Of a stretch of 35,083 bases of DNA, positions 1-35,083 are shown one piece after another. The stretch's first letter is position 1. The number at the start of each line of letters is the position of its first letter. Origin of the DNA: a virus; the IMG/VR virus record IMGVR_UViG_3300040960_001334, positions 1-35,083 of that record. One strand, given 5' to 3'. Under the pieces are notes generated by a model. That model did no database searches. It was not told where the DNA came from and saw nothing but the letters and a program-made list of their open reading frames with translations. Made by a program: the position numbers and the translations under genes.

Positions 1-133
1 ACCCTTCCCCCTGGCGGCGCACCCTGATGATGCGCCGATGGTTTGGCTTGGCCCGCAGTTCTCGCCGTATTTTTTCAGCTTCAAATTCATTATCTGCTGT
101 GTGACTGGCGACAAGTGCTTGCTGTTTATACAC
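1..133 (-). CDS. Hypothetical protein, 3' end cut by the window edge
   Basis: This is the second copy of the 61-residue ORF at 34228-34413. It starts with GTG (CAC at 131-133 on the plus strand) behind a GGGGA ribosome site, and runs off the window at base 1 after about 44 codons. It differs from the other copy at codon 5 (Gln for Arg). In a circular genome the gene would be completed by the sequence before 34280. The protein is small and basic, with an Arg/Lys-rich centre. I do not recognise a family. Confidence 0.6.
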   Translation of the reverse strand, partial: MYKQQALVASHTADNEFEAEKIRRELRAKPNHRRIIRVRRQGEG

Positions 134-135
134 AA

Positions 136-402
136 CTAATCCCCAAGCAGGTATTGCCGGACAGATGCTGTGTTGATGCCCAGCAGGTGAGCAATGGGCA
201 AGGGGTCAAACCCCTCACCCGTCAGATAGTCTGTGACGCGCCGCTGTTTTTCATTAAGCCGCTTTTCTTTCTTGCGCCGGAATTTCATGCACACTTTGCA
301 CACAGGCTGCTTTCGGTCCTTGGTGCGCGGGTGTGAGTAGTATTCCGAAAGCAGTTTTGTTTCGCCGCATTTGGTGCATTCTTTGGTATCAGGCATCGAC
401 AA
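136..402 (-). CDS. Small zinc-ribbon protein with C-terminal helix-turn-helix-like part
   Basis: An 88-residue basic protein. Residues 9-41 hold two Cys-x2-Cys pairs (CTKC and CKVC) about 24 residues apart, a typical zinc-ribbon spacing also seen at the N-terminus of many phage HNH-type proteins. A Lys/Arg stretch follows, and the last 30 residues (from VTDYL to YLLGD) could form a short helix-turn-helix. No HNH catalytic His-Asn-His is visible, so nuclease activity is not supported. It overlaps the start of its own region with the end of the Bet gene by 14 bases, so it is translated in the same leftward early operon. Its second copy at 34416-34682 differs only within the first 12 residues, although the DNA has many silent changes. 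Likely a DNA-binding early protein; exact role unknown. Confidence 0.75.
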   Translation of the reverse strand: MSMPDTKECTKCGETKLLSEYYSHPRTKDRKQPVCKVCMKFRRKKEKRLNEKQRRVTDYLTGEGFDPLPIAHLLGINTASVRQYLLGD

Positions 403-1330
403 TCTCCGCTTGTTGGATGCGTTCTTCTATTGCTTTTTTGAGTTCAAGGCTGTCTGTTTTGTTATGTACCCACAATTGACGCAGCGCCTCGGCATTGTGG
501 TTGCGGAACCAGTCAACTTCGGCAGGTTCTGCTGTGCCGACATATTCCAAGACCCTGTCGACTGCTTCGCCAATTGGCACAGAAACCAGATCACCCATTT
601 GTTCAAACTGGAACAGGGTTGCAGGACCACCCAGCCGCGCTTGACGCTTCTGGCGTTCGGCAGCTTCGGCTGCTTCCCAAGCATTAGAACTTTCTACATG
701 GTCAAATTCTTCAGCAACATGCACACCGGCTAGGTCTTCGGGCCAGCCTTTTCGCAAGGCTTGGCTTTCGGCACACTTCGCCAGCATGTGCTTAGGCATC
801 TTGTGCCATTTTTCTTTTTTGGGGTCTAAAACATACCCGCGTGTGCCTGTTTTTTTCATTTTCTTCTTTCCACTATCTTCCCACACCTCGCCGGTATCTT
901 GCCAAATTACGTCTTCAATTATTGGTGCAAATTCGTGCCAGTAGGCCATGCCAACGACCCTGTGCCAGTCGCCTTTGTTGTCCTGCTTGTAGGCGTTAAC
1001 TCGAGCATACTCTATGCCCAGCGGGTTATCTGGTCCTATCAGGCTTTCATCACAGATAATCTGGTAAGGTTCGTCGTCAGGGCGATAGTTGCCCTGCCGT
1101 TCAGCAAGGCCACGATACCCTTCGATGCTGGTGATAAATGAGCATTTGCGATTTGAACCACTGCCAAAGACAACACAGTAGATTTGCTTGCGGAACGGGT
1201 CTAATCCGACCCGCCTGCAAACCTCGGTAAACATATTAAATTCATCCGACGTGGTTCCTGCCGCAACAGTATTTCGGATTAGAGCAATTTGGTCGTTGCT
1301 GTAGGTGCGTTCAAGGATTTCTTGTCCCAT
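389..1330 (-). CDS. bet: Phage recombination protein Bet (RecT/Red-beta superfamily single-strand annealing protein)
   Basis: A 313-residue protein. Its N-terminal 200 residues carry the Bet-family pattern: an 'EFNMFTEVCRRVGLDPFRKQIY' type segment around residues 30-50, 'SFITSIEGYRGLAERQGNY' around 64-82, and a 'KMPKHMLAKCAESQALRKGWPEDLAGV' type segment near 180-205. These proteins anneal single-stranded DNA during phage recombination and concatemer formation. The C-terminal 110 residues are charged and variable, as usual in the family, where this part contacts partners such as SSB or the exonuclease. No matching 5'-3' exonuclease is visible nearby. The gene lies one base downstream of the Gp157-like gene, so the two are co-transcribed leftward. 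The 3' part is repeated, with strain differences, at the right end of the window. Confidence 0.93.
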   Translation of the reverse strand: MGQEILERTYSNDQIALIRNTVAAGTTSDEFNMFTEVCRRVGLDPFRKQIYCVVFGSGSNRKCSFITSIEGYRGLAERQGNYRPDDEPYQIICDESLIGPDNPLGIEYARVNAYKQDNKGDWHRVVGMAYWHEFAPIIEDVIWQDTGEVWEDSGKKKMKKTGTRGYVLDPKKEKWHKMPKHMLAKCAESQALRKGWPEDLAGVHVAEEFDHVESSNAWEAAEAAERQKRQARLGGPATLFQFEQMGDLVSVPIGEAVDRVLEYVGTAEPAEVDWFRNHNAEALRQLWVHNKTDSLELKKAIEERIQQAEIVDA

Positions 1331-1331
1331 C

Positions 1332-1835
1332 TTATTTTCTCCTTAGTGTGAGGCTGATGCCGCCATTGTCGATGTGTGTTCCGGGGACTTCGCCTTCGGC
1401 TGCTCGCAGCTTTGACTTGTCCAACACGGGGTCCGGTTGTTTAAAATATTCGGAAGGTATCAACGCTTCGTTGTCTACGACACGCGCTGGCTTGGTGTTG
1501 CGTAAAGTGTAGGTGGCACCGGGCAGTTTGATGGTCTTTTCTCCGGCTATGTCCATTGCTTGCAAGACAAGGTTTCGCAGGGTGTTGATATGCCGCTTTC
1601 GGCTGGCCTTGCGTTCGCTCAATTTCTTGAGCAAGGCATCGGTGCCTTCAACGTCGATCTCCAGTTCCATGATGGCTGTATCGACTGCACCAAGAACTTC
1701 CAGCAGATCGACTTCCCCTTCTAGGGTGTCGAACAATGTCTGGTCGTCAATGCCGGGAACGTCTGCTAGTTCCGATTTTAAATCGGCCCATTGTTCGGCT
1801 TGGTCGGTAGCGTGTTTGATTAGTGGATTTGTCAC
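1332..1835 (-). CDS. Siphovirus Gp157-like protein
   Basis: A 167-residue acidic protein with a long predicted helical, coiled-coil-like part (residues about 45-110). It contains the run 'ALLKKLSERKASRKRHINTL' and ends in a beta-rich tail (TYTLRNTKPARVV, then IPSEYFK). This arrangement is that of the Gp157 family first named from Streptococcus phage Sfi, commonly next to recombinase genes in siphophages. Its biochemical role is not established. The start is GTG with an AAAGG ribosome site 8 bases upstream. It is the first gene of the leftward early operon, directly downstream of the control region, and Bet follows almost without a gap. Confidence 0.85.
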   Translation of the reverse strand: MTNPLIKHATDQAEQWADLKSELADVPGIDDQTLFDTLEGEVDLLEVLGAVDTAIMELEIDVEGTDALLKKLSERKASRKRHINTLRNLVLQAMDIAGEKTIKLPGATYTLRNTKPARVVDNEALIPSEYFKQPDPVLDKSKLRAAEGEVPGTHIDNGGISLTLRRK

Positions 1836-1852: not shown

Positions 1853-1871
1853 GTGTGACTGACTTTCACAC
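1853..1871. promoter_or_regulatory. Palindromic operator candidate in the leftward leader
   Basis: GTGTGA and TCACAC flank a 7-base centre. The left part (1853-1863) is the exact reverse complement of GTCAGTCACAC at 2316-2326, and a 10-base version occurs at 2203-2212. The copies sit just upstream of the first gene of each divergent operon, as expected for binding sites of one phage regulator. No such regulator is identified. Confidence 0.45.
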
Positions 1872-1906
1872 AGTAACGCAATGCAGCGATAATTAAAACT
1901 ATTTTG

Positions 1907-1935
1907 ATTATATAATATGTAACAGGTTCTACATA
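1907..1935 (-). promoter_or_regulatory. Candidate leftward early promoter
   Basis: Read on the minus strand, a perfect -10 TATAAT lies at 1907-1912. No good -35 exists at the right distance; the region where it would lie (1930-1935) falls inside the first unit of the palindromic repeat array. This arrangement suits a promoter that is repressed or activated by the protein binding the array. A plus-strand TATAAT at 1911-1916 overlaps it. Confidence 0.45.
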
Positions 1936-2118
1936 ACCTGGCGGTAGGTTCGGTCTAACCTATAACAAGTTCGGGCTAATGGGTGGTCAAGTTACGGCTA
2001 ATAGGTGGTCAGGTTACGGCTAACCTGCAACGGGTCTGGGTCAACAGGGGGGTAGGTTCTGTCTAATAGGTGGGTAGGTTCCACATAACCTGCCACGGGT
2101 TCTCGCTAACCTGTCACA
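1921..2118. repeat. Nine-unit array of 21-22 bp imperfect palindromes (operator or iteron array)
   Basis: The unit resembles AGGTTnnnnnnTAACCT, a 5-6 base inverted repeat with a 6-base centre. Unit starts are at 1924, 1946, 1967, 1989, 2011, 2032, 2054, 2076 and 2097, so spacing is always 21 or 22 bases, two turns of B-DNA. Several units keep both arms (1924, 1946, 2011, 2076, 2097); others have a degenerate right arm such as TAATAGG. It lies between the leftward and rightward operons. Proteins bound to all units would line up on one face of the DNA. Candidate roles are repressor or activator operators, replication iterons or a partition-like site. It is not a CRISPR array: there are no spacers of constant length between conserved repeats. 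Confidence 0.85.
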
Positions 2119-2132
2119 TATTAGGCAAAGTA

Positions 2133-2163
2133 AAACCCCCCAGCTGTCAAGACCGGGGGGTTT
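2133..2163. terminator. C/G hairpin in the control region (terminator or attenuator)
   Basis: AAACCCCCC (2133-2141) pairs perfectly with GGGGGGTTT (2155-2163) around a 13-base loop. The flanking run is three T on the plus strand and four T on the minus strand, so it could stop transcription in either direction. It separates the repeat array from the start of the rightward leader. Confidence 0.55.
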
Positions 2164-2178
2164 AAGGAAGGTGAACCC

Positions 2179-2271
2179 ATGAACGGGATCGCGCCAAACA
2201 TTGTCAGTCACAACAAAGAAAGGCCAACAACACGAAGGAGAAAAGACTTTGAGTTGTTAAGGGGATTATAA
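2179..2271 (+). CDS. Possible 30-residue basic leader peptide
   Basis: An ATG at 2179 follows an AGGAAGG ribosome site 7 bases upstream and opens 30 codons ending in TAA at 2269-2271. The product is basic (RPTTRRRKDFELLRG near the end) with no known match. It is the only sensible ORF in the 536-base control region. It could be a real early peptide, a leader peptide, or chance. The strong ribosome site is the only support. Confidence 0.33.
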   Translation: MNGIAPNIVSHNKERPTTRRRKDFELLRGL

Positions 2272-2280
2272 GGAGCATAG

Positions 2281-2326
2281 TTTACAGCCGCAAGATTTTT
2301 GGTTAATGTTTTTTCGTCAGTCACAC
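2281..2326 (+). promoter_or_regulatory. Candidate rightward promoter with downstream operator box
   Basis: TTTACA at 2281-2286 is separated by 17 bases from TAATGT at 2304-2309, a fair -35 and a weak -10. The predicted start of transcription falls on GTCAGTCACAC (2316-2326), the inverted twin of the box at 1853-1863. The initiator gene begins 46 bases after the box. The same TTTAC -35 appears in two minus-strand promoters of this phage. Confidence 0.35.
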
Positions 2327-2371: not shown

Positions 2372-3058
2372 ATGAGCCACGAAGCGAGCATTTGGGCGCT
2401 CAACCTTCCCCATAACAACGCAACGCACAAAGTCGTCTTGTTGGGCTTGGCGAACCATGCCGACCCTACTGGCGGCAAATGCTTTCCATCCATAACGCGG
2501 CTAGAACTATACACTGGACTAAGCAGGCGCACCGTAATTAGGGCTATTAAGCAAATGGAAGAATTGGGGATAATCTCTGCTATTCACACCAAGGGCAAGT
2601 CAACGCAATACCAGTTGCATATTGACCTCGAACTAGTGCCAGACAAGCACCAGTGCCAGAATGGCACTAGTGCCACTGACGACACAACTAGTGCCATTGA
2701 CGACACTAACTGGTGCCAGAGTGGCACCCTAACTATCAATAACCATCAAGAACCATCAATAATATATGATCAATTTGAGCAGTTTTGGGAGTTGTACCCG
2801 CGCAAGGTTGGCAAGCGAAAAGCGCAGAAAGAATTTGAACGAGCCATGAAACGCGGTTCAATGGAAACAATCACCCAAGGCTTGTTGAAACAGAACGCAG
2901 CATGGCTGGCAGCAGGAACGCCCGTAAAGTGGATACCGCACCCGACGACCTGGCTGCACCGTGACGGGTGGGAAGATGAACCAGCGCAGCCAGAACAACA
3001 ACAATCACGCTTGCAAAGGAGCACAGCGATATTGCTTGAAAGGGGGAACGTTCAATGA
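2372..3058 (+). CDS. Replication initiator, lambda O-like, with N-terminal helix-turn-helix
   Basis: A 228-residue protein. Residues 1-90 match the winged helix-turn-helix arrangement of phage initiators: 'KVVLLGLANHADPTGGKCFPSI', then 'LELYTGLSRRTVIRAIKQME', 'LGIIS' and a beta wing. A low-complexity linker (about 92-128) is rich in Thr, Asp and Asn because its DNA is made of repeats. The C-terminal part (about 130-205) has 'FEQFWELYPRKVGKRKAQKEF' and 'WIPHPTTWLHRDGWEDE', a module common at the C-end of phage initiators and thought to contact the helicase loader or helicase. An AGGAG ribosome site precedes the ATG. It is the first rightward gene and overlaps the next by an ATGA. Its own gene contains the likely origin, as in lambda O. 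Confidence 0.85.
   Translation: MSHEASIWALNLPHNNATHKVVLLGLANHADPTGGKCFPSITRLELYTGLSRRTVIRAIKQMEELGIISAIHTKGKSTQYQLHIDLELVPDKHQCQNGTSATDDTTSAIDDTNWCQSGTLTINNHQEPSIIYDQFEQFWELYPRKVGKRKAQKEFERAMKRGSMETITQGLLKQNAAWLAAGTPVKWIPHPTTWLHRDGWEDEPAQPEQQQSRLQRSTAILLERGNVQ
2631..2785. other. Likely phage replication origin: iterons plus AT-rich stretch inside the initiator gene
   Basis: The box AGTGCCA occurs at 2635, 2652, 2669 and 2690, with GGTGCCA at 2712; spacings are 17, 17, 21 and 22. Two of them form inverted repeats with a 3-base centre: AGTGCCAgaaTGGCACT at 2652-2668 and GGTGCCAgagTGGCACC at 2712-2728. An AT-rich tract (about 2730-2785, including AATAATATATGATCAATTTG) follows directly. Iterons followed by an easily melted tract in the middle of the initiator gene is the lambda ori arrangement. 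The encoded linker is low-complexity, which shows the DNA rather than the protein is constrained here. Confidence 0.75.
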
Positions 3059-3594
3059 GTTCGCTAGTACCTATTGAAAAATACGATTACGACAAATGCG
3101 TGATGGCTGCAGGTGCCATTATATCCGCTTATCCAAAGCTGTTCTTGGAAGATGAAGTCGGCTTCCAGGGGCGGCTGGCAGTCGTGCTAATGGATTATCC
3201 AAGGGCTGTTGTCGATGATGCCGTCAAGCACATTCCGTCAGTGATACCGAAGAAACAACTTGAGTTGCATTCGGTGCGCCAGTATTGCAACAAGGCGTCA
3301 CAGCCGATCTATGAGGCGCGGCGATACCAGCGCGAGCAGTTGCAGCAGGAACGGGCAGAAGCTGAACACATTGCCGAGGTAAAACGGGACAGGCTGGCTT
3401 ATGAAGCATGGCAAAAAGCCAACCCCGGCAAGAGCCGTTTCGATTATTTGGGCATCACCTGGCGACCAGGCAAAAGCGCCACCATTGATGTGACGCCCTA
3501 CATAGAAACAGAATGGGGGGCGCATTCGCAGGCGATGCAAGACCGAGAAGCCGAAGGAACCGTAGCCCGTTCGCTAGGCATGGAAACGGCATAG
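3055..3594 (+). CDS. Replication-region protein of unknown family (possible helicase-loading partner)
   Basis: A 179-residue protein starting at the ATG that overlaps the initiator stop (ATGA). Residues 1-80 look alpha-helical and globular. A strongly charged segment around residues 85-120 (REQLQQERAEAEHIAEVKRDR) is coiled-coil-like, and the C-terminus has a 'SRFDYLGITWRPG' type stretch. I do not recognise a family and see no Walker A motif, so it is not a DnaC-type ATPase. Position directly behind an O-like initiator is where lambda-type phages carry the helicase loader P, which also lacks obvious ATPase motifs. That role is an inference from position only. Confidence 0.7.
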   Translation: MSSLVPIEKYDYDKCVMAAGAIISAYPKLFLEDEVGFQGRLAVVLMDYPRAVVDDAVKHIPSVIPKKQLELHSVRQYCNKASQPIYEARRYQREQLQQERAEAEHIAEVKRDRLAYEAWQKANPGKSRFDYLGITWRPGKSATIDVTPYIETEWGAHSQAMQDREAEGTVARSLGMETA

Positions 3595-3609
3595 GTTATT
3601 TGTTATGAT
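3581..3609 (+). promoter_or_regulatory. Candidate promoter before the virion genes
   Basis: TGGAAA (3581-3586), a 17-base spacer and TATGAT (3604-3609) form a sigma70-like promoter in the only gap between the replication genes and the first virion gene at 3637. The -35 lies inside the end of the preceding gene. No experimental support. Confidence 0.35.
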
Positions 3610-3636
3610 CAGCAAACAATAGTCAGGGAATGATGC

Positions 3637-3951
3637 ATGAGCTTTCACGCACGATTGGTCGGCCGGACGCTGACCCAAGACCGGATACGGATTAACGCTT
3701 TAGCGGCGGCTATAGAGTTGTTCAGTTTGATTGGGCATCCGTCAATGGCGCAGATAGAAACGGCTTTTGATCTTGATCCTTCTGATGCGGAATGGGCGCA
3801 ATTTAAGCAGATGTATGACAGATCAACGAACAAGCGCCGTTTTTTGGCGATTGCGGCGAATGCGATGCGTTTGGCGGAGGGGGGTCATTTTGGGATGGAT
3901 GACAGCACGACCTTCTTTTCAAGGCTGACGAGCGCGACCAGCGGGGTGTAG
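3637..3951 (+). CDS. Hypothetical protein at the head of the fibre/virion gene group
   Basis: A 104-residue protein, probably helical, with 'LTQDRIRINALAAAIELFSL' and 'KQMYDRSTNKRRFLAIAANA'. It has no signal peptide, membrane segment or known motif. Its stop lies three bases before the start of the 432-residue virion protein and it is expressed with it. An accessory or assembly role for the virion proteins downstream is possible, but there is no direct evidence. Confidence 0.65.
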   Translation: MSFHARLVGRTLTQDRIRINALAAAIELFSLIGHPSMAQIETAFDLDPSDAEWAQFKQMYDRSTNKRRFLAIAANAMRLAEGGHFGMDDSTTFFSRLTSATSGV

Positions 3952-3954
3952 GTC

Positions 3955-5253
3955 ATGAGCCTTTATGCGTCAGTTGTTGGGTTCCAGGCTAAGACGACGA
4001 CTGGTACGCTTGACATTACAGGCAGTCTTGGTGGTGAGAACCCGAAGGCAGCATTGTTTTTTATGACTGAAGAGACCACCTTATCCAACACGCCTTTGAC
4101 GCCCTTTCATTTCACGATGGGCATGACGGACGGGACGAACGAGTTTTATTCGGTGGTTCACTCGGAAACGGGTGTTACAACGACGGATGATTACAGTGCG
4201 GCTTATACGGACGCCGTGTTAAGAGGGATTGATGGCACAGGGGCGCAGACCTACAAAGCTGCTTTTGATAGCTGGATAACGAACGGGGTTCGAATTAACT
4301 GGTCTGATGCAGCACCTTCGGCCTTTCAGGGGTTTGTTGTGCTGCTTGGCGGGTCTGATCTTGCGAATGCCTATGTTGGTACGTGTGGCACGGGTGCAAC
4401 GGTTACTGATCCGGGTTTCTCGGTTAATCAGGTGATTATGGCGGCGATTGGCACGGGCATTGCCAGCGGCACGGTTGCTAATGGCGCTCACATGATGTTT
4501 GGCATGGGGCTTGATACCAGCACGTTCAGTAATAGCACGTCTTCCAATTTGGGTTGGTCGTTTCTAATGCGGGATGGTTTGTCAACGTCAGCGCCTGGTA
4601 CTGTTTGGGAAGATGCTTGTGTCATTTCCAAGCTGAAAGATACCACGACATCTGGTTTTGACTACAACATGACGGTCGGCACATGGAGTTCGAGCGGGTT
4701 TACGACGAGCAGCGACCACAGTAATTCGGACAAGGTTGGGTATTTGGCGCTGGAGTGGAACAGCGGTTGTGATGTTCGTTTAGAGCCGCTGGATAACAAC
4801 AATTATACATCCACGGGCGTGAACAAGCACGATTACGGTGTGACATTTGGCGGCACTGGAACGCCGGTTCTTAATATGTTGTCTGGTAGCCTTTCAAGGC
4901 GAGACACTGGCAGCCGCGATAATAATGACGCAGGGGGTATGCACATTGCAGCGACTGATGGCACAACAGACAAAGCTGTCGGCGGCGGTGTAGATGATGG
5001 GGTGTCAACAACGGCGACTGGCTCTAATGCGTCATCGAAGTCTCTAGCTATCCCTAATCCCTTTGCGCCACAGAGCAGCAGTGCATGGATCAGGGCAACA
5101 TTTGATAGCTGGGCCACAGATGGCGTGAACCATAATTATGACGCAGTTGCCGGTGGATCGAATTATCACTATCTTGGTTGGGTGGTCGTTCCGTCTGATG
5201 GTGTGGCGGTGCCAGTATTCACAAATCACTATCTAAGAATGATGGGGTCGTAA
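3955..5253 (+). CDS. Probable virion surface protein (beta-rich, with an internally repeated motif)
   Basis: A 432-residue protein very rich in Gly, Ser, Thr and Asp and poor in Lys, as is typical of phage surface and fibre proteins. A motif near residues 103-135 (AAFDSWITNGVRINW followed by a hydrophobic strand) returns near 380-412 (ATFDSWATDGVNHNY and a hydrophobic strand), which points to a duplicated domain. There is no signal peptide or enzymatic motif. It is followed after one base by the repeat-rich fibre gene. This suggests a receptor-binding or capsid/tail decoration complex together with the next three genes. The family is not recognised. Confidence 0.7.
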   Translation: MSLYASVVGFQAKTTTGTLDITGSLGGENPKAALFFMTEETTLSNTPLTPFHFTMGMTDGTNEFYSVVHSETGVTTTDDYSAAYTDAVLRGIDGTGAQTYKAAFDSWITNGVRINWSDAAPSAFQGFVVLLGGSDLANAYVGTCGTGATVTDPGFSVNQVIMAAIGTGIASGTVANGAHMMFGMGLDTSTFSNSTSSNLGWSFLMRDGLSTSAPGTVWEDACVISKLKDTTTSGFDYNMTVGTWSSSGFTTSSDHSNSDKVGYLALEWNSGCDVRLEPLDNNNYTSTGVNKHDYGVTFGGTGTPVLNMLSGSLSRRDTGSRDNNDAGGMHIAATDGTTDKAVGGGVDDGVSTTATGSNASSKSLAIPNPFAPQSSSAWIRATFDSWATDGVNHNYDAVAGGSNYHYLGWVVVPSDGVAVPVFTNHYLRMMGS

Positions 5254-8227: not shown

Positions 8228-8842
8228 ATGGACAAGAAAAAATACAAGATAACCTGGCGCAATACGGATGATCTTATTCCGTATGCTCGCAATGCCCGCG
8301 TTCACAGTGATGAACAGGTGGCGCAGATAGCCGCAAGCATATCCGAGTTCGGCTGGACTAACCCGATATTGCTAGATGGCGACAACGGCGTGATTGCCGG
8401 ACATGGCCGTTTGATGGCAGCGCGGAAGCTGGAACACAAAGAGGTTCCGACCATCGACCTGCACGGTTTAAGCGAAGCGCAGAAGCGGGCCTATATCATT
8501 GCGGATAACAAGACTGCCCTGAATGCCTCATGGGACTTTGATATGTTGACGGTTGAGTTTGAGGAACTGGCAGGCATGGATTTTGACCTGGCGCTGACCG
8601 GCTTTGGCGAAGTGGAAATTGACGCCATTGCCAATGATGGCCTTGACCTAAGTGTGCTGGATGACGTTTCAGATGATGAACTGGAAGGCTACGAGGCCAA
8701 CGTGCGGAAAGCCATACAAGTTGAATTTGAGCAGGAACACTTTGCCGAAGCGCAGGAGTTGTTTAAGTTTTGGCGTGAGCGTGAAGCATATGTTGGCGGC
8801 TTAATAATGGATTTCTTGCGAGCAGAAAAAAACAAGCTGTGA
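8228..8842 (+). CDS. ParB/sulfiredoxin-fold nuclease-domain protein
   Basis: A 204-residue protein. Residues 1-100 are a ParB N-terminal domain: IPYARNARVHSDEQVAQI, SISEFGWTNPILLD, the GHGRL signature near residue 59, then a Leu-rich segment and AYIIADNKTAL. In phages and plasmids this domain is often the N-terminal half of DNA methyltransferases; here no methylase motif follows. The C-terminal part is acidic, then ends in a KFWREREAYVGGLIMDFLRAEK-like helical segment also seen on free-standing phage ParB proteins. I chose ATG 8228 over an in-frame TTG at 8171 because AGGTGG precedes it and the family begins here. It overlaps the glycosyltransferase gene by four bases (GTGA). Likely guides or nicks DNA within the modification pathway. 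Confidence 0.82.
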   Translation: MDKKKYKITWRNTDDLIPYARNARVHSDEQVAQIAASISEFGWTNPILLDGDNGVIAGHGRLMAARKLEHKEVPTIDLHGLSEAQKRAYIIADNKTALNASWDFDMLTVEFEELAGMDFDLALTGFGEVEIDAIANDGLDLSVLDDVSDDELEGYEANVRKAIQVEFEQEHFAEAQELFKFWREREAYVGGLIMDFLRAEKNKL

Positions 8843-9570
8843 TTATCTGCATACCTACCAAGGGCCGACCCGAAACCAGCACCTACAAACTGTTTGAGGC
8901 AAGCGGGCATGAGGTTCATCACTTCATTGAGCCGCAAGACTTCGACGATTATGCCGTTCCAAACAAGGTCAACATCCAGGCCAACGATCAAGGGCTGGTC
9001 TACGCCCGTAACTTCATCATGGATTGGGCGCGGGGCAACGGCCACCAGTTCATATGCATGTGTGATGATGATATGACAGAGTTTGGTGTTGCTGTGAATA
9101 ACCGCTGTGTCAGTCAACCTGGTGCTGACGCACTAAGTGCGCCTATTGCAGCGTTTGAAAAGGCCGGGGCAGCGATAGGCGGGTTCAATGCGAGGCAATA
9201 CGCTTGGAGTGAAAAAAAAAGCTATCGCTTGAACGCTGGTAAGAGCGAAGGGGTAGTGTTGATGAACATGAGGAAAATATATTGGCGATATCGCGGAGGC
9301 ATGAAGCAAGACAGAGACTTCCTGATGCAGTGCCTAGATAATCGGCAGAACTTTATTTTTTTTCCAAAGGTATATTATGGAACCCCTGTTATTGGCACAA
9401 ATAAAGGGGGGCTGCATGAGCAATACGCAACAGGGGTTGACGCGAAAGCAGCGTATACTCTGCAAAAGCGATGGCCTGAATATTCCAAGATCATTGAACA
9501 GCACGGGCGCATTGACGTCCGGTTGGACTACAAGCGCAAGGCCGCAGATATGGGATTGAAGGTAATATGA
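8839..9570 (+). CDS. TET-associated glycosyltransferase (TAGT-like, GT-A fold)
   Basis: A 243-residue protein. It starts with IICIPTKGRP, a GT-A nucleotide-sugar-binding strand and loop. It has QGLVYARNFI near 51-60, the metal-binding acidic triad CDDDM (D76-D78), GGMKQDRDFLMQCLD near 153-167 (the usual acceptor/catalytic Asp segment) and a TNKGGLHEQY segment near 187-196. This order fits the small glycosyltransferases that accompany TET/JBP dioxygenases in phages and are thought to add a sugar to the hydroxymethyl group of an oxidised DNA base. It starts with GTG inside the stop of the ParB gene and ends in an ATGA overlap with the dioxygenase, so the cassette is translationally coupled. The sugar donor cannot be read from sequence. 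Confidence 0.82.
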   Translation: MIICIPTKGRPETSTYKLFEASGHEVHHFIEPQDFDDYAVPNKVNIQANDQGLVYARNFIMDWARGNGHQFICMCDDDMTEFGVAVNNRCVSQPGADALSAPIAAFEKAGAAIGGFNARQYAWSEKKSYRLNAGKSEGVVLMNMRKIYWRYRGGMKQDRDFLMQCLDNRQNFIFFPKVYYGTPVIGTNKGGLHEQYATGVDAKAAYTLQKRWPEYSKIIEQHGRIDVRLDYKRKAADMGLKVI

Positions 9571-10379
9571 ACACGCTGGAACTGGTCAGGCTGGATGGGC
9601 CAGCGGTTAAGGTCGGGCAGAAATGCCCCGCCATAGAACCCAACATTACCGAAGACACCATATTCACCGAGAGCGGGAAGCCTGTGGGGTTTTACCTGCG
9701 GGACATAACGCAGCACTCAACTATTGCCGGTGAACTGGCAGCTATCGCCAACAGGGAATTGTGCAGCGACAGGGTGCCAAAAACAGAAATGAGCCGTGGC
9801 CCCCAGGGCAGCAAGTTGGACAAACTAAAACGGCTACAAGAAGGAAAGAACCTTGTGACGCAATACAGCGCCATCCTTGGTTCAGTTCCACCAAAACCTC
9901 ATATGCGCCGACCCTACCCAACTATAAGCAGCGTTCATTCCTGCAAGACAGCTAAGATATTTGTGAAATCAATGCTTTACCTTTGCCGGGAAAGCGAGGC
10001 GCTTATAAAAAAGTTGATGCCTGAACAATACGAGGTGCAGAAAGCCGCCATAGCCGCCAACGTGCCGGTCAAATACAGGTTCGGTGAGTTGTTCACTAGT
10101 TCAATCAGCAATTACAACATCGCAGCCGATTATCACATAGACCGCGCCAACTTGCGGGATTGCGTCAATGTGATCATAGCCAAGCGGGAAGCGGCAACAG
10201 GCGGGAACACAAATGTTCCGTCCTTTGGTGCTACGGTCGATAGTTGCGATAATTCAATGCTCGTGTATCCAGCATGGAAAGACATACACGGCGTAACACC
10301 GATAGTGAAGCAGTTGCCTTATGGCTACAGGAACACGCTCGTATTCTACCCCCTAGCAGCGTTCGCAAAGTACGTTTGA
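9567..10379 (+). CDS. TET/JBP-family 2-oxoglutarate/Fe(II) DNA base dioxygenase
   Basis: A 270-residue protein. The double-stranded beta-helix core shows the iron ligands as YHIDRAN (H190, D192) and DIHGVTPI (H241), and the 2-oxoglutarate-binding Arg in YRNTLVFYPL (R255). The upstream LxxxANxELxSDRVPKxxM segment (about 58-75) is typical of phage TET/JBP proteins. The family oxidises the 5-methyl group of cytosine (TET) or thymine (JBP) in DNA to hydroxymethyl and beyond. A GAAGG ribosome site lies before the ATG, which overlaps the glycosyltransferase stop. Its own stop overlaps the start of the QueE-like gene (TGATG). No C5-methyltransferase is encoded in this phage, so whether the substrate is host-made 5-methylcytosine or thymine is open. 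All four key residues are present, so it should be active. Confidence 0.85.
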   Translation: MNTLELVRLDGPAVKVGQKCPAIEPNITEDTIFTESGKPVGFYLRDITQHSTIAGELAAIANRELCSDRVPKTEMSRGPQGSKLDKLKRLQEGKNLVTQYSAILGSVPPKPHMRRPYPTISSVHSCKTAKIFVKSMLYLCRESEALIKKLMPEQYEVQKAAIAANVPVKYRFGELFTSSISNYNIAADYHIDRANLRDCVNVIIAKREAATGGNTNVPSFGATVDSCDNSMLVYPAWKDIHGVTPIVKQLPYGYRNTLVFYPLAAFAKYV

Positions 10380-11047
10380 TGCTGCCAGTAAATGAGATAT
10401 TTCAAGCGGTGCAAACAATTGGAGCCTTCACCGGCACACCGTCTATCTTCATTCGTTTGCAGGGTTGCCCTGTAGGTTGCCCGTGGTGCAACACTAAACA
10501 TGCCTGGGCCATCAACGACGACACGCGCACAAATTTCGTTGATATGGTTGCCAAAGAAGAACTTGGTCAGCCAGAATGGGCATGGGTTGAGGCGAAGTGG
10601 CTGGTGGAATACATAGTCGGTTTGTTTGAAGGAAACCATGTCGTGATAACGGGCGGCGAGCCATGCCAATACGACCTGACGCCATTGACGAATATGCTTG
10701 AGGGATACGGCTACACAACCCAGGTTGAGACAAGCGGGGTGCTGCCGGTGCAGGTGTCAGCATTTACATTTGTGACCGTTTCACCCAAGATAGACCAGCC
10801 GGGCGGGTTGCAGGTTATTGAGCAGAACGTGATCGACGCTGACGAAATAACCTTTGCCATCAGCAGCGAGCGCGATATAGCCGCGCTTCAAAGCTTGTTA
10901 AATGCGTTAAAACGACCCGTGGGCATGGTATACCTGCACCCAATAAGGAGCACATACCAGAACGCCCGATTGTGTGTGCAGGCGGCAACAGAGGCAGGGT
11001 GGCGCGTATCGTTGCCTGCGATGTTCAACGGAGTTAGCGATGGGTGA
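10379..11047 (+). CDS. queE: QueE-like radical SAM enzyme (7-carboxy-7-deazaguanine synthase family), active-site divergent
   Basis: A 222-residue protein, the length of enterobacterial QueE. The N-terminus NEIFQAVQ..FTGTPSIFIRLQGC is strongly QueE-like. The radical SAM cluster Cys are C30, C34 and C37 (CPVGCPWC), followed by the family's NTKHAW. The SAM motif TGGEP is at 91-95. True QueE makes 7-carboxy-7-deazaguanine from carboxy-tetrahydropterin in queuosine and 7-deazaguanine DNA pathways. Two usually conserved elements are changed: QGEG is QTIG (12-15), losing the Glu, and the C-terminal QTHK is replaced by PAMF (213-216). No QueC, QueD, FolE or DpdA gene is visible. The gene symbol marks family, not proven activity. 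The ATG at 10379 overlaps the dioxygenase stop; an upstream in-frame start at 10274 would only add residues antisense to family alignment. Confidence 0.85.
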   Translation: MLPVNEIFQAVQTIGAFTGTPSIFIRLQGCPVGCPWCNTKHAWAINDDTRTNFVDMVAKEELGQPEWAWVEAKWLVEYIVGLFEGNHVVITGGEPCQYDLTPLTNMLEGYGYTTQVETSGVLPVQVSAFTFVTVSPKIDQPGGLQVIEQNVIDADEITFAISSERDIAALQSLLNALKRPVGMVYLHPIRSTYQNARLCVQAATEAGWRVSLPAMFNGVSDG

Positions 11048-17594: not shown

Positions 17595-17639
17595 GGTCTG
17601 TCGGCTAGTCTCCTTCCCCCCTCACTGATAGACCGGAAG

Positions 17640-17666
17640 CGGGGCCGTTCAGCGGCCCCGTTTTTT
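17640..17666 (+). terminator. Strong rho-independent terminator
   Basis: CGGGGCCG (17640-17647) pairs with CGGCCCCG (17653-17660) across TTCAG, followed by six T (17661-17666). It ends the head gene transcript on the plus strand. Its stem overlaps the last codons of the first minus-strand gene (stop at 17649-17651). Confidence 0.92.
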
Positions 17667-17816
17667 GTTGGCTTTGTTCCTTCCATCGTTTTCATAATCC
17701 ATGATGTTGTGGCTGGTCGCACCCCAACGGCTGATGAAGCGTTGCATCACTTCTGTGTTGTTGTCCTTTAACGCCTGGCAATATTGGGTCCATTCGCGGC
17801 GGTCTGTTTTGTTCAT
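17649..17816 (-). CDS. Hypothetical 55-residue protein
   Basis: An uninterrupted 55-codon frame from ATG at 17816 with AAGGAG ten bases upstream. The product begins MNKTDRREWTQYCQ and ends in a basic stretch (RNKANKKRGR). Its start follows the stop of the next gene (17820-18017) by 3 bases, so the two are coupled in the minus-strand cassette. Its C-terminus is read through the terminator stem. No family recognised. Confidence 0.6.
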   Translation of the reverse strand: MNKTDRREWTQYCQALKDNNTEVMQRFISRWGATSHNIMDYENDGRNKANKKRGR

Positions 17817-17819
17817 AGT

Positions 17820-18017
17820 CTATGCTCCTTCATATTCGGCTTTGCGTGACAGGAAGCCGGGGTCGTTGTCGGCGTTGTATTCCATGCAGGCGCGTATCGC
17901 CTCTGCTTCTGTCTGCACATGACACAAGGTTGTCTTGCGGCCTAAATGCGGCTCACGGCCACCCGGCCATTCGGGGTTACGCTTCCAGAAATTGCGTACG
18001 AAAACATGATAGTTCAT
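17820..18017 (-). CDS. Hypothetical 65-residue protein
   Basis: Small soluble basic protein (NYHVFVRNFWKRNPEWPGGREPHLGRKTTLCHVQ; the last part includes EAEAIRACMEYNADNDPG). The helix-like 'TEAEAIRACMEYN' resembles small phage proteins with a single modified beta-alpha fold, but no family is named with confidence. The ATG overlaps the stop of the GcrA-like gene by four bases. Ribosome site GGGAG is visible upstream. Confidence 0.6.
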   Translation of the reverse strand: MNYHVFVRNFWKRNPEWPGGREPHLGRKTTLCHVQTEAEAIRACMEYNADNDPGFLSRKAEYEGA

Positions 18018-18337
18018 AGTTCTTCTCCCTCTTTGGTTGGTTTAAATAGACTGATTTGATAGGACCGGAAAGGGCATGATTGGATTAAACACGGATTTCC
18101 TTCGTTCAAATTATTTGCAAGGTGCACCAATACAATTTCACACTGTGGGCAAAGAGGCTCACCTTGTATTTTTCGTTTTCCGTTGACCATGTGGCGTTTG
18201 GGCAGGTTCATATGCCTTCGCTTGGCCGATACGGTGGCAATGTTCTTTCGCAGCCTCTTGGCAATATCCTTGATAGGTGCGCCGTCTGCCCACATATCAG
18301 TTAGCGTCTTTTCCATTTCTGCGTCCCAATGTCCCAT
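18014..18337 (-). CDS. GcrA-like transcription regulator
   Basis: A 107-residue protein. The N-terminal 50 residues (GHWDAEMEKTLTDMWADG followed by PIKDIAKRLRKNIATVSAKR) match the GcrA helix-turn-helix, with the final MNLPKRH basic turn. GcrA is an alphaproteobacterial cell-cycle regulator that binds RNA polymerase sigma factor at methylated promoters. Phage copies are common and presumably steer host or phage transcription. The C-terminal part has Cys pairs (CPQC; CLIQSC) that may bind a metal, unlike typical GcrA. It shares four overlapping bases with its neighbour. Confidence 0.72.
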   Translation of the reverse strand: MGHWDAEMEKTLTDMWADGAPIKDIAKRLRKNIATVSAKRRHMNLPKRHMVNGKRKIQGEPLCPQCEIVLVHLANNLNEGNPCLIQSCPFRSYQISLFKPTKEGEEL

Positions 18338-18609
18338 TATTCGTCTACCCCTTCCATGAAGGCTTCAACGGCTTGGTCAAGAATACTGCGGGTGGTGTGT
18401 ACCCTGACGGCAGCGCGTTCGGTGTTTACCGTGTCGGCGTCTTTGATGGCGTTTTCTAGCTCGTCTGCCAGCCACTTGATGAAGTCGGGTGTTGCTGACC
18501 AATGCGGGGTGAACGTGTCTTCTGATGGATGAATGGTGGCCTTTAGCACCCCGAACTTGTTAGCCTGTGCGCGTGCATGTTCCATTGCTTGCTGGTTAGT
18601 TCTTTCCAT
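18337..18609 (-). CDS. Hypothetical phage protein, 90 residues
   Basis: Start chosen at ATG 18609, which follows AAAGGAACGTCTG, the leader shared by several genes on this strand; a longer frame to 18681 has no ribosome site. The protein (MERTNQQAMEHARAQANKFG; TPHWSATPDFIKWLADELEN) is acidic and probably helical. Related small proteins occur in many phage genomes without known role. Its stop meets the start of the GcrA-like gene. Confidence 0.65.
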   Translation of the reverse strand: MERTNQQAMEHARAQANKFGVLKATIHPSEDTFTPHWSATPDFIKWLADELENAIKDADTVNTERAAVRVHTTRSILDQAVEAFMEGVDE

Positions 18610-18620
18610 CAGACGTTCCT

Positions 18621-18758
18621 TTAGTCGTTGTTGAACAGGTAGATCACAGCCCACATCGCTATCAGCGGCAACGCATACCAAAGAGCAAAAGGGATGGTAA
18701 TGGCGATAAGAACAGCAGCGAGAGTGCCGCTGATTTTGTCATATGTTGACTGACGCAT
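18621..18758 (-). CDS. Tiny membrane protein, 45 residues
   Basis: A 45-codon frame from ATG 18758, which overlaps the stop codon of the next gene upstream (TAATG). GAGG lies 8 bases before it. Residues about 11-40 are hydrophobic (TLAAVLIAITIPFALWYALP, then LIAMWAVIYLF): one long or two short transmembrane segments. A holin-like or superinfection-related role is possible but unproven. Confidence 0.6.
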   Translation of the reverse strand: MRQSTYDKISGTLAAVLIAITIPFALWYALPLIAMWAVIYLFNND

Positions 18759-19027
18759 TAGCCCGCCTCATTTGTCTGTATTTCAACGCTGGTGTACAGG
18801 TCTCCAAGTAGGGACCTCATCGCTTTGGCGTCAATTTTGTCCCTGAACCAGACACATTGAAAATCGTCATACCGAGAATAGTAGACCTGGTTGGAATGCA
18901 TTATGTCCTGCATCAGCTGGCCAATCACATCGCTGACATTCAGACGCAACCACCATCTGTGAGTAAATATGCGACCCTCAATATTAAGCCGGTGCATGTT
19001 CTTTGTTTCAGGATTGAGAATGGACAT
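18758..19027 (-). CDS. Hypothetical protein, 89 residues
   Basis: The start at 19027 is set by the AAAGGAACGTCCA leader; the longer frame to 19210 would add an implausible Cys-rich extension. The protein has aromatic-rich stretches (IFTHRWWLRLNVSDVIGQLM; YYSRYDDFQCVWFRDKID). No family recognised. It overlaps the tiny membrane gene downstream by one base. Confidence 0.6.
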   Translation of the reverse strand: MSILNPETKNMHRLNIEGRIFTHRWWLRLNVSDVIGQLMQDIMHSNQVYYSRYDDFQCVWFRDKIDAKAMRSLLGDLYTSVEIQTNEAG

Positions 19028-19044
19028 TGGACGTTCCTTTTTGT

Positions 19045-19185
19045 TTAAAAGTCTTCGCGAGAAGCGGAAACTATGGCAGCAATGATAGCAATGATTACGA
19101 CGAAGACAACCCGCATGAGGAACCATGCAACACGGATGGCAAAGTAACCAACAACAACTACAAGAACGAGTGTTAAGAAATCCAT
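19045..19185 (-). CDS. Tiny membrane protein, 46 residues
   Basis: A 46-codon frame from ATG 19185 with AGGGG 7 bases upstream. Almost all of it is hydrophobic: DFLTLVLVVVVGYFAIRVAW followed by FLMRVVFVVIIAIIAAIV, likely two transmembrane segments with a short Arg-containing turn, and a charged tail SREDF. It sits between the two leader-bearing genes. Function unknown. Confidence 0.6.
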   Translation of the reverse strand: MDFLTLVLVVVVGYFAIRVAWFLMRVVFVVIIAIIAAIVSASREDF

Positions 19186-19193
19186 TGTTGCCC

Positions 19194-19478
19194 CTATGCC
19201 ACGTTGTCAATGGCTATTTCTTCAACCTGCTTAATCAGCGCCGATGCATTATCAACGCCAAGAAAATATTCCAGTGCAGCAGGAAAGGTTGCAAAGCACT
19301 CGTCGCCTTCTTCATTGGAGAGTTCCACATATTCAAACATCGCTGAATATTCGTACATCACACCCCGCGCACCATCGACGACCCGTTCTATCAGAACAGA
19401 ACATTCTGACGCGACATGGTAGTAGTGGCCGAGACTTTCAAAGTCGGTTTGAGCGCATGTATATTCGAGATTGGACAT
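19194..19478 (-). CDS. Hypothetical protein, first gene of the minus-strand cassette
   Basis: Start chosen at ATG 19478, behind AAAGGAACGTCCA; 15 further residues upstream in the frame lack a ribosome site. The 94-residue acidic protein has DGARGVMYEYSAMFEYVELS and ECFATFPAALEYFLG segments and no recognised family. It is the promoter-proximal gene of the cassette read from a promoter at 19522-19549. Confidence 0.6.
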   Translation of the reverse strand: MSNLEYTCAQTDFESLGHYYHVASECSVLIERVVDGARGVMYEYSAMFEYVELSNEEGDECFATFPAALEYFLGVDNASALIKQVEEIAIDNVA

Positions 19479-19521
19479 TGGACGTTCCTTTCGGTGACTG
19501 AATTTGGTAATCTCAATAATC

Positions 19522-19568
19522 ATAATACGCAGTTAAAACTAAAAGTAAACCCCCGTTTTAACTTTTTT
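19522..19568 (-). promoter_or_regulatory. Cassette promoter and overlapping inverted repeat
   Basis: On the minus strand TTTACT (19544-19549), 16 bases and TATTAT (19522-19527) form a good sigma70-like promoter. It is enclosed by GTTAAAAC (19532-19539) and GTTTTAAC (19555-19562), an inverted repeat that could be an operator over the -35. On the plus strand the right arm runs into six T (19563-19568), so it may also act as a weak terminator before the connector genes. The sequence GGGGGTTTAC is shared with the promoter at 33541-33569. Confidence 0.55.
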
Positions 19569-31343: not shown

Positions 31344-31769
31344 CTAATAGAACGTCATGAGTTCCCGTTCAATGTCTGGACGGTCTGTGCCGGGCGGCAT
31401 CAATGTATTCGCTGCATATGTCAGGGTGTCTTCGTAGAACTGGTTGAACTCGTCTTTACTCATAGATGATATGCCGCGCAGCCTGTACTGCACCTGCCCG
31501 TCAGCACGGATGAACGGTTCAGCCTTGCCCAGCGAAATAAGAATGTCGTCGTGCAATTGATCCTTGTTCCAGCCTCGTACATTGTGCTTTGCCAGCAAGC
31601 CGACCAGCACCCACCACTTGCGAACTAACTTGAGGTTCTTTGCCTTGTGGCCGTCCAGATAAATCAGTTCACCGTCATTGACGCTGTGGAAAAAGTTTTG
31701 TGCGCTTTCACTGGCAGGCTCAAACCCGTACATCGTCTTGCGCCATATCGGCCTATCTTTTTGCGGCAT
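31344..31769 (-). CDS. Hypothetical phage protein (DUF1367-like)
   Basis: A 141-residue protein. SESAQNFFHSVNDGELIYLD, then a 'KNLKLVRKWWVLVGLLAKHN' segment resembles the DUF1367 family found near replication and recombination genes in lambda-like phages, with the 'RN..HRK.fall' element changed. Function unknown in that family. AGGGG precedes the ATG. It is the last gene of the leftward early operon and stops exactly at the inverted repeat. Confidence 0.65.
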   Translation of the reverse strand: MPQKDRPIWRKTMYGFEPASESAQNFFHSVNDGELIYLDGHKAKNLKLVRKWWVLVGLLAKHNVRGWNKDQLHDDILISLGKAEPFIRADGQVQYRLRGISSMSKDEFNQFYEDTLTYAANTLMPPGTDRPDIERELMTFY

Positions 31770-31831
31770 CGTTTACCCCTGTTCTGCTAGGGTGTTGCGT
31801 AGACAATCGTGGCTGCAACAGTTGGTGAATA

Positions 31832-32239
31832 ATGAGACAGATTACTTTCAAGGTTCCCGGAAAACCTACAGGCAAAGGCCGCCCAAGGTTCACGCGCAAT
31901 GGCCGTGCATACACGCCGAACAAGACCCGCGCATATGAAAGCCTCGTCGCTAGGGTTGCCAAGATTGCGATGGCAAGCGAACCAGTCCTAACTGGGCCGG
32001 TGCGGTTGCAGATTGAAGCCTGCTTCGCCAAGCCTAAAAGCTGGTCAAAGAAAAAGAGAGAAGCGGCATATTGGAAAACAAGCATTCCAGATGCGGACAA
32101 TCTTGCCAAAGTCGCTGATGCGTTGAACGGTATCGTTTGGGATGATGATGCCCAAGTCTGTGAATTATCAGTCAAAAAGGTATATTCGGTGCATGACGTT
32201 GAAGAAATGATCTTCATTGTCACCGAACTCACAGCATAG
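31832..32239 (+). CDS. rusA: Holliday junction resolvase RusA family
   Basis: A 135-residue protein. RusA motifs are clear: VPGKPTGKGRPRFTRNGRAY at the start, the DNA-binding Asp segment SIPDADNLAKVADALNG with the catalytic Asp residues and DDAQVCELSVKKVY near the end. It cuts Holliday junctions so that packaging can use branched DNA. It is on the plus strand alone amid minus-strand early genes and converges by 11 bases with the following gene. A GGTGA site precedes ATG 31832. Confidence 0.94.
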   Translation: MRQITFKVPGKPTGKGRPRFTRNGRAYTPNKTRAYESLVARVAKIAMASEPVLTGPVRLQIEACFAKPKSWSKKKREAAYWKTSIPDADNLAKVADALNGIVWDDDAQVCELSVKKVYSVHDVEEMIFIVTELTA

Positions 32240-32435
32240 GCTTGATGTCGTTTGACCACACCCGCCATGCCTCGGCTGGGTCGTCTGTGATTTCGTATTC
32301 ATTCATCCAAGCCACAATCTGCTTTTTAGTCGGCTTCCCATTGTGGCGGTTGACTTGGCGAAGCAATACATCCAATTTGCTGTTGGACATGCCGCGCAAC
32401 GGGCGGCGTCTGTTTTTGTCTTTGTGTAGGTTCAT
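32229..32435 (-). CDS. Hypothetical basic protein, 68 residues
   Basis: Basic, helical, with 'MSNSKLDVLLRQVNRHNGKP' and TKKQIVAWMNEYEITDDPAE. It could start at residue 16 (MSNSK). No family recognised. Its stop runs into the end of the convergent RusA gene, and the start overlaps the gene upstream by four bases. Confidence 0.55.
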   Translation of the reverse strand: MNLHKDKNRRRPLRGMSNSKLDVLLRQVNRHNGKPTKKQIVAWMNEYEITDDPAEAWRVWSNDIKPML

Positions 32436-32722
32436 CGTCTATAACCCCTGACTGCTTCTGAAACGCGCCCAGCGTTCACGTTAAATTTTGCGCCTATGTC
32501 TGTCTGTGACATAGCTGGGTTCGCCCGCCAATAATCCCGTATTTCTTCCGTCAGTTCTGGCGTCATAGGGCTGGAGCTTATGGGTGCTTTCCTGATCGGC
32601 TTGCGCCGTGACAGGTTAGCAGACAGCCTGCGCATTTCTGCAGCGGCTTCACATATGTCTGCGCCTGTTTCCAATTCATTAGCCACTTGGTTCAGGCGTT
32701 CTTGAATGTCAGGTATCTTCAT
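32432..32722 (-). CDS. Putative helix-turn-helix DNA-binding protein
   Basis: A 96-residue protein: an acidic helical N-terminus, a Ser/Pro linker and a C-terminal helix-turn-helix-like element (EEIRDYWRANPAMSQTDIGA then KFNVNAGRVSEAVRGYRR). Suited to an early regulator. It overlaps the next gene upstream by 14 bases. Confidence 0.6.
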   Translation of the reverse strand: MKIPDIQERLNQVANELETGADICEAAAEMRRLSANLSRRKPIRKAPISSSPMTPELTEEIRDYWRANPAMSQTDIGAKFNVNAGRVSEAVRGYRR

Positions 32723-32906
32723 AGTCGGCTCCTAGTTTGTCAGTGATAACTTGGCGCACTGCGCCGGGTGTTGTCACGTCTGGGTAATAGTCGCTCAAGG
32801 CGTCGATCAGGTCAGCCGTCAGATATACTGAAACCTTTTTGCCTGCCTGTTTTCCCTTTGGCTTGCGGCCTGCGCCAGTGCGGGTACCGCCACGGTTTTC
32901 AGTCAT
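32709..32906 (-). CDS. Small ribbon-helix-helix-like protein
   Basis: A 65-residue protein with a Gly/Arg-rich start (RGGTRTGAGRKPKGKQ) followed by KVSVYLTADLIDALSDYYPD, a strand-helix pattern of ribbon-helix-helix DNA-binding proteins. Many phages carry such GxRxGAGRK proteins. Likely a regulator; target unknown. Confidence 0.62.
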   Translation of the reverse strand: MTENRGGTRTGAGRKPKGKQAGKKVSVYLTADLIDALSDYYPDVTTPGAVRQVITDKLGADYEDT

Positions 32907-34231: not shown

Positions 34232-34413
34232 TTAGACGTTCCTTTCGGTTTGAACGGGGTCAGGTATTCATTGACGACATACCCTTCCCCCTGGCGGCGC
34301 ACCCTGATGATGCGCCGATGGTTTGGCTTGGCCCGCAGTTCTCGCCGTATTTTTTCAGCTTCAAATTCATTATCTGCTGTGTGACTGGCGACAAGTGCTC
34401 GCTGTTTATACAC
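34228..34413 (-). CDS. Hypothetical basic protein, 61 residues
   Basis: Complete copy of the gene cut at 1-133. GTG start after GGGGAC. KIRRELRAKPNHRRIIRVRR is strongly basic, so nucleic acid binding is possible. Overlaps the next gene by four bases. The end repeat begins inside it at 34281. Confidence 0.6.
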   Translation of the reverse strand: MYKQRALVASHTADNEFEAEKIRRELRAKPNHRRIIRVRRQGEGYVVNEYLTPFKPKGTSK

Positions 34414-34415
34414 AA

Positions 34416-34682
34416 CTAGTCCCCAAGCAGATATTGCCGCACAGACGCAGTATTGATGCCTAGCAGGTGCGCTATAGGCAAGGGGTCGAACCCCTCGCCA
34501 GTAAGGTAGTCTGTGACGCGGCGTTGCTTTTCATTAAGCCGCTTTTCTTTTTTGCGCCTAAACTTCATGCACACTTTACACACAGGCTGTTTGCGGTCTT
34601 TGGTGCGCGGGTGTGAGTAGTATTCCGAAAGCAGTTTCGTCTCACTGCACTTGCTGCATTTCTTTGTATCAAGCATCAACAA
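34416..34682 (-). CDS. Small zinc-ribbon protein, second strain copy
   Basis: 88 residues, identical to the copy at 136-402 after residue 12; the N-terminus reads MLMLDTKKCSKC instead of MSMPDTKECTKC. The Cys pairs are kept. The DNA differs more in silent positions than in protein, so selection has kept the sequence in both strains. Confidence 0.75.
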   Translation of the reverse strand: MLMLDTKKCSKCSETKLLSEYYSHPRTKDRKQPVCKVCMKFRRKKEKRLNEKQRRVTDYLTGEGFDPLPIAHLLGINTASVRQYLLGD

Positions 34683-35083
34683 TCTCCGCCTGCTGGATGC
34701 GTTCTTCCATAACCTTTTTCAGTTCGAGGCTGTCTGTTTTGTTGTACGCCCACAATTGGCGCAGCCCTTCGGCATTGTGGTTGCGAAACCAGTCGACTTC
34801 GGCAGGTTCTGCTGTGCTGACATATTCCAGAACCCTGTCGACTGCTTCGCCAATTGGCACAGAAACCAGATCACCCATTTGTTCAAACTGGAACAGGGTT
34901 GCAGGACCACCCAGCCGCGCTTGACGCTTCTGGCGTTCGGCTGCTTCGGCTGCTTCCCACGCATTAGAACTTTCTACATGGTCAAATTCTTCGGCAACAT
35001 GCACACCGGCCAGGTCTTCGGGCCAGCCTTTCCGCAGGGCTTGACTTTCGGCACATTTCGCCAGCATGTGCTTGGGCATCTTG
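34669..35083 (-). CDS. bet: Bet recombinase, second strain copy, N-terminal part beyond the window
   Basis: The C-terminal 137 codons of the Bet gene, from the KMPKHMLAKC region to the stop. Differences from the copy at 389-1330 are few and mild (Gly to Ser, Ala to Gly, VH to AY, AI to VM) and lie in the variable tail. The start of the gene lies outside the window. Confidence 0.85.
   Translation of the reverse strand, partial: KMPKHMLAKCAESQALRKGWPEDLAGVHVAEEFDHVESSNAWEAAEAAERQKRQARLGGPATLFQFEQMGDLVSVPIGEAVDRVLEYVSTAEPAEVDWFRNHNAEGLRQLWAYNKTDSLELKKVMEERIQQAEIVDA

Follow-up and report, generated by a model that had tools for sequence, protein, structure and literature searches.

Among phages, phased arrays of operators are a familiar control element in the space between divergent operons. 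In lambda OL/OR and in the Mu operators, repeated sites lie between divergent early promoters at intervals of about two helical turns. Operators of the Arc/Mnt type, bound by ribbon-helix-helix (RHH) proteins, are short AGGT...ACCT-type palindromes, and parS of pSM19035 is reportedly an RHH-bound centromere repeat array. For the lambda origin of replication, PMC7466680 describes iterons inside the initiator gene together with an AT-rich element, and binding of lambda O to imperfect inverted repeats.

The window analysed here is the whole of a 35,083-base virus record (IMG/VR record IMGVR_UViG_3300040960_001334) with a siphophage gene set (terminase, portal, capsid, tape measure and endolysin). 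An array of nine units (1924..2117, + strand) is found between its divergent early modules, with Gp157, RecT and an 88-aa protein encoded leftward and an O-like initiator and a 179-aa protein encoded rightward. In its repeated sites between divergent early operons, about two turns apart, the array resembles the multi-operator regions of temperate phages (lambda OL/OR; Mu), but it has nine sites, and neither an integrase nor a CI/Cro or Mu-type repressor gene alongside is recognised. Its AGGT...ACCT-type short palindromes recall the Arc/Mnt-type operators, and the phage has an RHH-like gene; this gene, however, is also found in phage contigs that lack the array. Like parS of pSM19035, the array consists of tandem short sites of a kind suited to small DNA-binding proteins, but its units are longer and palindromic, and no ParA-type partner is recognised. 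The likeness to lambda O and its origin concerns an element within the initiator gene (2635-2778), where mid-gene palindromic iterons of an O-like gene are followed by AT-rich DNA. The array, in contrast, lies outside the gene, has another unit and stays when the N-terminal domain of the initiator is swapped. With a probability of about 0.58, the array is a multi-site operator, with putative binding by a regulator of both early operons that is not the initiator.

The array in the window and in its relative

The array is made of 16-bp units of the form RGGTTC-n4-TAA(C/T)..., separated by spacers of 5-6 bp and repeated with a period of 21/22. Units start at 1924, 1946, 1967, 1989, 2011, 2032, 2054, 2076 and 2097, with unit-to-unit spacings of 22, 21, 22, 22, 21, 22, 22 and 21 bp. 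Pairwise comparison of the nine 16-mers gives a mean identity of 0.625, and the same offsets applied to 34,424 other starts in the window, leaving out those that overlap the array (~1681-2120), give a maximum of 0.339 (mean 0.252, sd 0.019). The first-pass annotation of nine units every 21 or 22 bases is thus borne out. Exact matches to AGGTTn5TAACCT on the + strand number four, all within the array; matches with 2 mismatches are scattered elsewhere, and nowhere else do exact or nearly exact units cluster. The array has a 65-bp super-period (lag-65 identity 77/129) and its spacings fall into triplets (22-21-22, 22-21-22, 22-21). Thus, it has probably grown by 65-bp triplets.

Only one other array carrier was found among the contigs, IMGVR_UViG_3300034375_007482 (L005, also G001; 23,022 bases), and the comparative arguments made here concern this one pair of phages. 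Window and L005 are 92% identical over 1-2035, 95% over 2012-2376 and 90% over 2758-5197. The L005 array has six units (3875-4003 of that contig) in the same phase as in the window, the difference being one 65-bp block. Searching for the unit in related phages, as had been proposed, therefore yields one relative in which unit and phase are both retained.

Each unit had been described as a small palindrome, which is true of units 1, 2, 5, 8 and 9 (self-complementarity 0.62-0.75) but not of units 3, 4, 6 and 7 (0.25-0.38), where only the left half and the AA in the centre are kept. At a self-complementarity of >=0.62, 5/9 units of the window and 4/6 of L005 are palindromic. Counted over 15 units, the nine of the window plus the six of L005, positions G3, T4, A12 and A13 are invariant (15/15), and T5 (14/15), G17 (14/15), G2 (13/15) and T11 (13/15) vary little. 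At position 6, 11/15 units have C (the rest A, with one T), which has no symmetric pairing with T11, position 11 being T or C across units. This asymmetry gives the units a direction, and all of them point one way. The accompanying idea that bound proteins would lie on one face of the DNA is sensitive to the helical repeat: the phase is nearly perfect at 10.8 bp/turn (vector strength 0.99), but not at 10.5 bp/turn (0.55), where unit 9 lies 171 degrees off unit 1.

In the collections searched, unit and array are not found beyond this relative and unrelated look-alikes. A two-unit pattern starting AGGTT has no matches in viral contigs, and a looser two-unit pattern finds five stretches, the L005 relative plus four unrelated ones. 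With a three-unit pattern there are 20, namely the L005 contig (as L012) and 19 unrelated stretches that are microsatellite-like or coding tandem repeats, with a few operator-like repeats (L015, L029, L033). In a Halorubrum persicum contig (L040, 1299-1336), two similar palindromes stand about 22 bp apart, apparently in an intergenic position and probably unrelated. A distant blastn search of 1840-2371 in phages gives no match, and searches of an open-licence library gave no paper that describes the array. Protein queries with the initiator, Gp157, RecT and the 179-aa protein all return the L005 contig. Further relatives from these queries are L017 and L018, with RecT 42-43% identical and no array in the loci examined; L038, on a contig too short to reach the array; and L039, matching at 30%. 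Among the relatives found by protein, the inspection for arrays covered L005, L017, L018 and L038; similarity to the initiator extends to 146 phage records.

The two ends of the window (1-803 and 34281-35083) match each other with 92% identity, so that the record probably represents a circular genome of ~34.3 kb whose assembly drew on a mixed population. An alphaproteobacterial host is probable, given homologues of a 96-aa protein in Roseobacter, Caulobacter and Brevundimonas phages; homologues are also listed from Planktothrix and Synechococcus phages. Elsewhere in the genome, adjacent genes for a TAGT-type glycosyltransferase, a queuine tRNA-ribosyltransferase-like protein and a QueE-like protein (8839-11047) suggest a DNA modification of the 7-deazaguanine type. 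A RusA-like frame (31832-32239, + strand; phrog_140, E 4.9e-43) overlaps an ORF on the other strand that has no match (31753-32268, - strand).

On the leftward side, the first gene is Gp157/Gam-like (1332..1835, - strand; Pfam PF05565, E 6.7e-17; phrog_253, E 6.4e-22) and the second encodes a RecT-type annealing protein (389..1330, - strand; Pfam PF03837, E 5.5e-26). A leftward promoter with a perfect -10 and a poor -35, the latter overlapped by unit 1, had been proposed. The AT-rich stretch to the left of that unit (1889..1922, 91% A+T) holds this -10, but a consensus scan gives no leftward promoter and L005 has a changed TATAAT, so this part of the first-pass annotation is poorly supported. 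In each phage the scan gives a single + strand match, not the same one in L005 as in the window, with no convincing promoter on either side of the array.

Between the array and the initiator gene there is a stem-loop, AAACCCCCC...GGGGGGTTT (2133..2163, - strand), seen in the alignment with L005, where one C-G pair is replaced by T-A. It is terminator-like for leftward transcripts, having its T tail on the - strand, and a terminator scan lists the L005 copy as leftward terminator-like but not the window copy. The motif GTCAGTCACA has three copies in the 35-kb window, all in the control region and each reading the same way as the divergent gene on its side: one in the leftward leader (1854..1863, - strand) and two on the rightward side (2203..2212 and 2316..2325, + strand). 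The same three are present in L005. This motif may be a second operator, or it may act in RNA as a nut-like or leader element. A possible 30-aa arginine-rich ORF, read from the sequence, occupies part of the interval from the stem-loop to the initiator gene (2179..2271, + strand); it has a good ribosome-binding site, and its one change relative to L005 is synonymous.

The initiator gene and its iterons

The lambda-O-like replication initiator (2372..3058, + strand) has an HTH_36 N-terminal domain (PF13730, E 3.6e-14; phrog_270, E 4.7e-38) and also matches phrog_391, 'replication initiation O-like' (E 4.9e-14). Five RGTGCCA-type iterons lie within the gene (2635..2728, + strand; starts 2635, 2652, 2669, 2690 and 2712), of which two also have the complete inverted arm (RGTGCCAnnnTGGCACY), and their count is reached in 0/300 dinucleotide shuffles of the gene. 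They are directly followed by an AT-rich stretch (2729..2778, 74%), so that the repeats at 2635-2778 have the layout of ori-lambda, in which palindromic mid-gene iterons precede an AT-rich element. In L005 the in-gene iterons are of the GGGACAAA or GGACA(A) type, in place of the AGTGCCA type of the window. Four GGACA(A)-type sites (starts 4848, 4870, 4892 and 4914; 22-bp spacing) are followed there by a stretch of 79% A+T. Their clustering is weaker, the 7-mer count being reached in 15/300 shuffles and the 6-mer count in 6/300. The array unit shares no motif with the in-gene iterons of either phage.

The tight alignment of window and L005 takes in the stem-loop, the possible 30-aa ORF and the ribosome-binding region and reaches the start codon of the initiator. 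Identity of ~95% extends to 2376, 5 bases inside the initiator ORF, and then breaks. Over their first 79 residues the two initiators are only 27% identical, whereas the C-terminal part is 88-94% identical; HTH_36 matches both N-termini. In the L005 initiator (L005 4257-5291), an HNH domain (PF01844, E 1.4e-12) also separates the DNA-binding domain from the C-terminus.

The DNA-binding domain of the initiator and the in-gene repeats thus appear to have been exchanged together, with the intergenic array kept. The array is independent of both, and it should therefore answer to something other than the initiator. This joint exchange, seen in a single pair of phages, is the strongest sign that the initiator does not bind at the array. 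A lambda-type origin is most likely to lie inside the initiator gene and not in the array.

These comparisons bear directly on the best of the alternatives, in which the array would be a replication origin or auxiliary origin, its units being iterons for the O-like initiator and 1889-1922 an unwinding element. The first-pass annotation does not mention the lambda-O-like nature of the rightward gene, which is what makes origin iterons the chief alternative. The initiator gene does adjoin the array, the palindromic repeats are about two turns apart, a stretch of 91% A+T flanks unit 1, and lambda O too binds imperfect inverted repeats (PMC7466680); but, as in lambda, the O-like gene itself holds better-placed iterons with an AT-rich flank of their own, and these change with the DNA-binding domain, while the array is kept despite the 27% identity over 79 residues. 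As the array (1924-2117) is also outside the initiator gene (start 2372) and has no motif in common with the in-gene iterons, an origin at this position is unlikely.

Candidate ligands and other readings of the array

Among the ORFs scanned with PHROGs there is no integrase and no CI-like repressor, in agreement with the first-pass annotation, which had recognised no repressor gene; several small helix-turn-helix (HTH) or RHH candidates are seen. The best-placed is, tentatively and with the odds still well against it, the 88-aa product of the third leftward gene (136..402, - strand), a zinc-binding protein with a C-terminal HTH-like part (phrog_1035, E 1.3e-11, residues 6-57). It is ranked first because it is encoded in the adjacent leftward operon. 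The protein is 95% identical in L005. Its model (pLDDT 76.6) has helices at 36-61, 68-74 and 78-86, and a structure search with this model gives no matches at E <= 0.001.

Another candidate is a 107-aa HTH protein, D5-like or GcrA-like (18014..18337, - strand; phrog_323, E 0.0039; PF13936 HTH_38, E 0.0073), which is 96% identical in L005. Its gene lies in a minus-strand island of small genes of no known function within the structural module (17600-19560), an island kept in L005 at 93-94%. The 88-aa and 107-aa proteins are both present in the two array carriers and absent from the other contigs compared. This co-occurrence carries little weight, because overall similarity predicts it and because a terminase-side HTH protein and a ParB-like protein co-occur too, being found in L005 as well as on the G002 contig, which stops short of the array region. 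The 107-aa protein is thereby neither favoured nor disfavoured. The 96-aa protein, which is HTH-like, is in 0/7 records, including L005, whose contig ends before that gene, so this absence carries no weight.

Since no phage repressor is recognised, the ligand could instead come from the host, as a regulator or a protein of the nucleoid type through which the phage would sense the state of its host. The two-unit pattern, however, occurs in genome contigs at two unrelated places only (Halorubrum and Prevotellaceae), in a search that degenerate single host sites could escape, and a host ligand is distinctly unlikely.

The first-pass annotation had also listed an RHH protein as a candidate, and a 65-aa RHH-like protein is encoded at 32709..32906 (- strand). 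Autoregulation of the Arc/Mnt kind would fit its RHH-like sequence, a weak Arc-like match (phrog_3431, E 0.025), a helix pattern of low confidence and the resemblance of Mnt operators to AGGT...ACCT. Copies 80-85% identical are nevertheless found in three contigs that share parts of the window genome (L043-L045, or G003-G005; one of 38.6 kb) and have no cluster of units in the three records, nor an O/RecT module in the stretches read, although these records may be fragments. The L005 contig ends before the gene. The array-less copies are suggestive evidence against this protein, which is now a disfavoured candidate and, as the ligand, improbable.

A packaging or partition site, bound by the terminase small subunit or the ParB-like protein, is very improbable. 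Repeat arrays are often bound by terminase and ParB proteins, and a terminase-side HTH protein and a ParB-like protein are encoded here and common to L005, but the terminase genes are 9 kb from the array, the ParB match is a weak one to the N-terminal domain only, and there is no ParA partner among the scanned ORFs. That the array works as RNA, or as single-stranded hairpins in a leader transcript, is hardly credible and was rejected, for in spite of the palindromic units and the conserved stem-loop to their right, four units are unable to form a hairpin, RNA of the array, from either strand, shows no folding excess in four tests against base-composition shuffles (z -0.46, -0.80, -1.11 and -0.33), and no Rfam match falls at the array, with one chance-level match elsewhere.

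An array-bound control element, as first proposed, therefore survives in part: a multi-site protein-binding element fits best with the conservation in L005, the lack of an RNA excess and the lack of an iteron match, but its link to a leftward sigma-70 promoter is not supported. As in phage multi-operator switches, phased repeats lie between divergent early operons, and the sites are kept in one relative. Under the multi-site operator reading, a small phage-encoded DNA-binding protein, distinct from the replication initiator and probably dimeric, would bind each unit, with RGGTTC as a strong left half-site and TAACCT as the right half-site, the latter being absent from 4/9 units of the window. 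The two-turn spacing would let neighbours touch, so that cooperative binding along one face would be expected. Binding to the array may then repress early leftward and rightward expression, switching both together; such joint control is suggested by the position between the divergent operons.

What the pair of phages means

The most interesting feature of this locus is that an initiator domain and its in-gene repeats seem to have been exchanged beside a constant array. The two close phages amount to a natural experiment, differing in the DNA-binding domain of the initiator and in the in-gene iterons and having the intergenic array in common. A further reading, rather speculative at present, gives the array a constant coordinating role, in which it would tie replication and recombination to early transcription whatever the specificity of the initiator. 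The initiator domain and the in-gene origin would then form an exchangeable cassette with its left border at the initiator start codon, and the array and its ligand, remaining constant, would determine how active the origin of any given cassette is. For a phage group that has no isolated close relatives among the collections searched, the comparison provides a short list of candidate ligands, and the pair of window and L005 would tell the origin of replication apart from a second, regulatory array, one that annotation would otherwise take for the origin.
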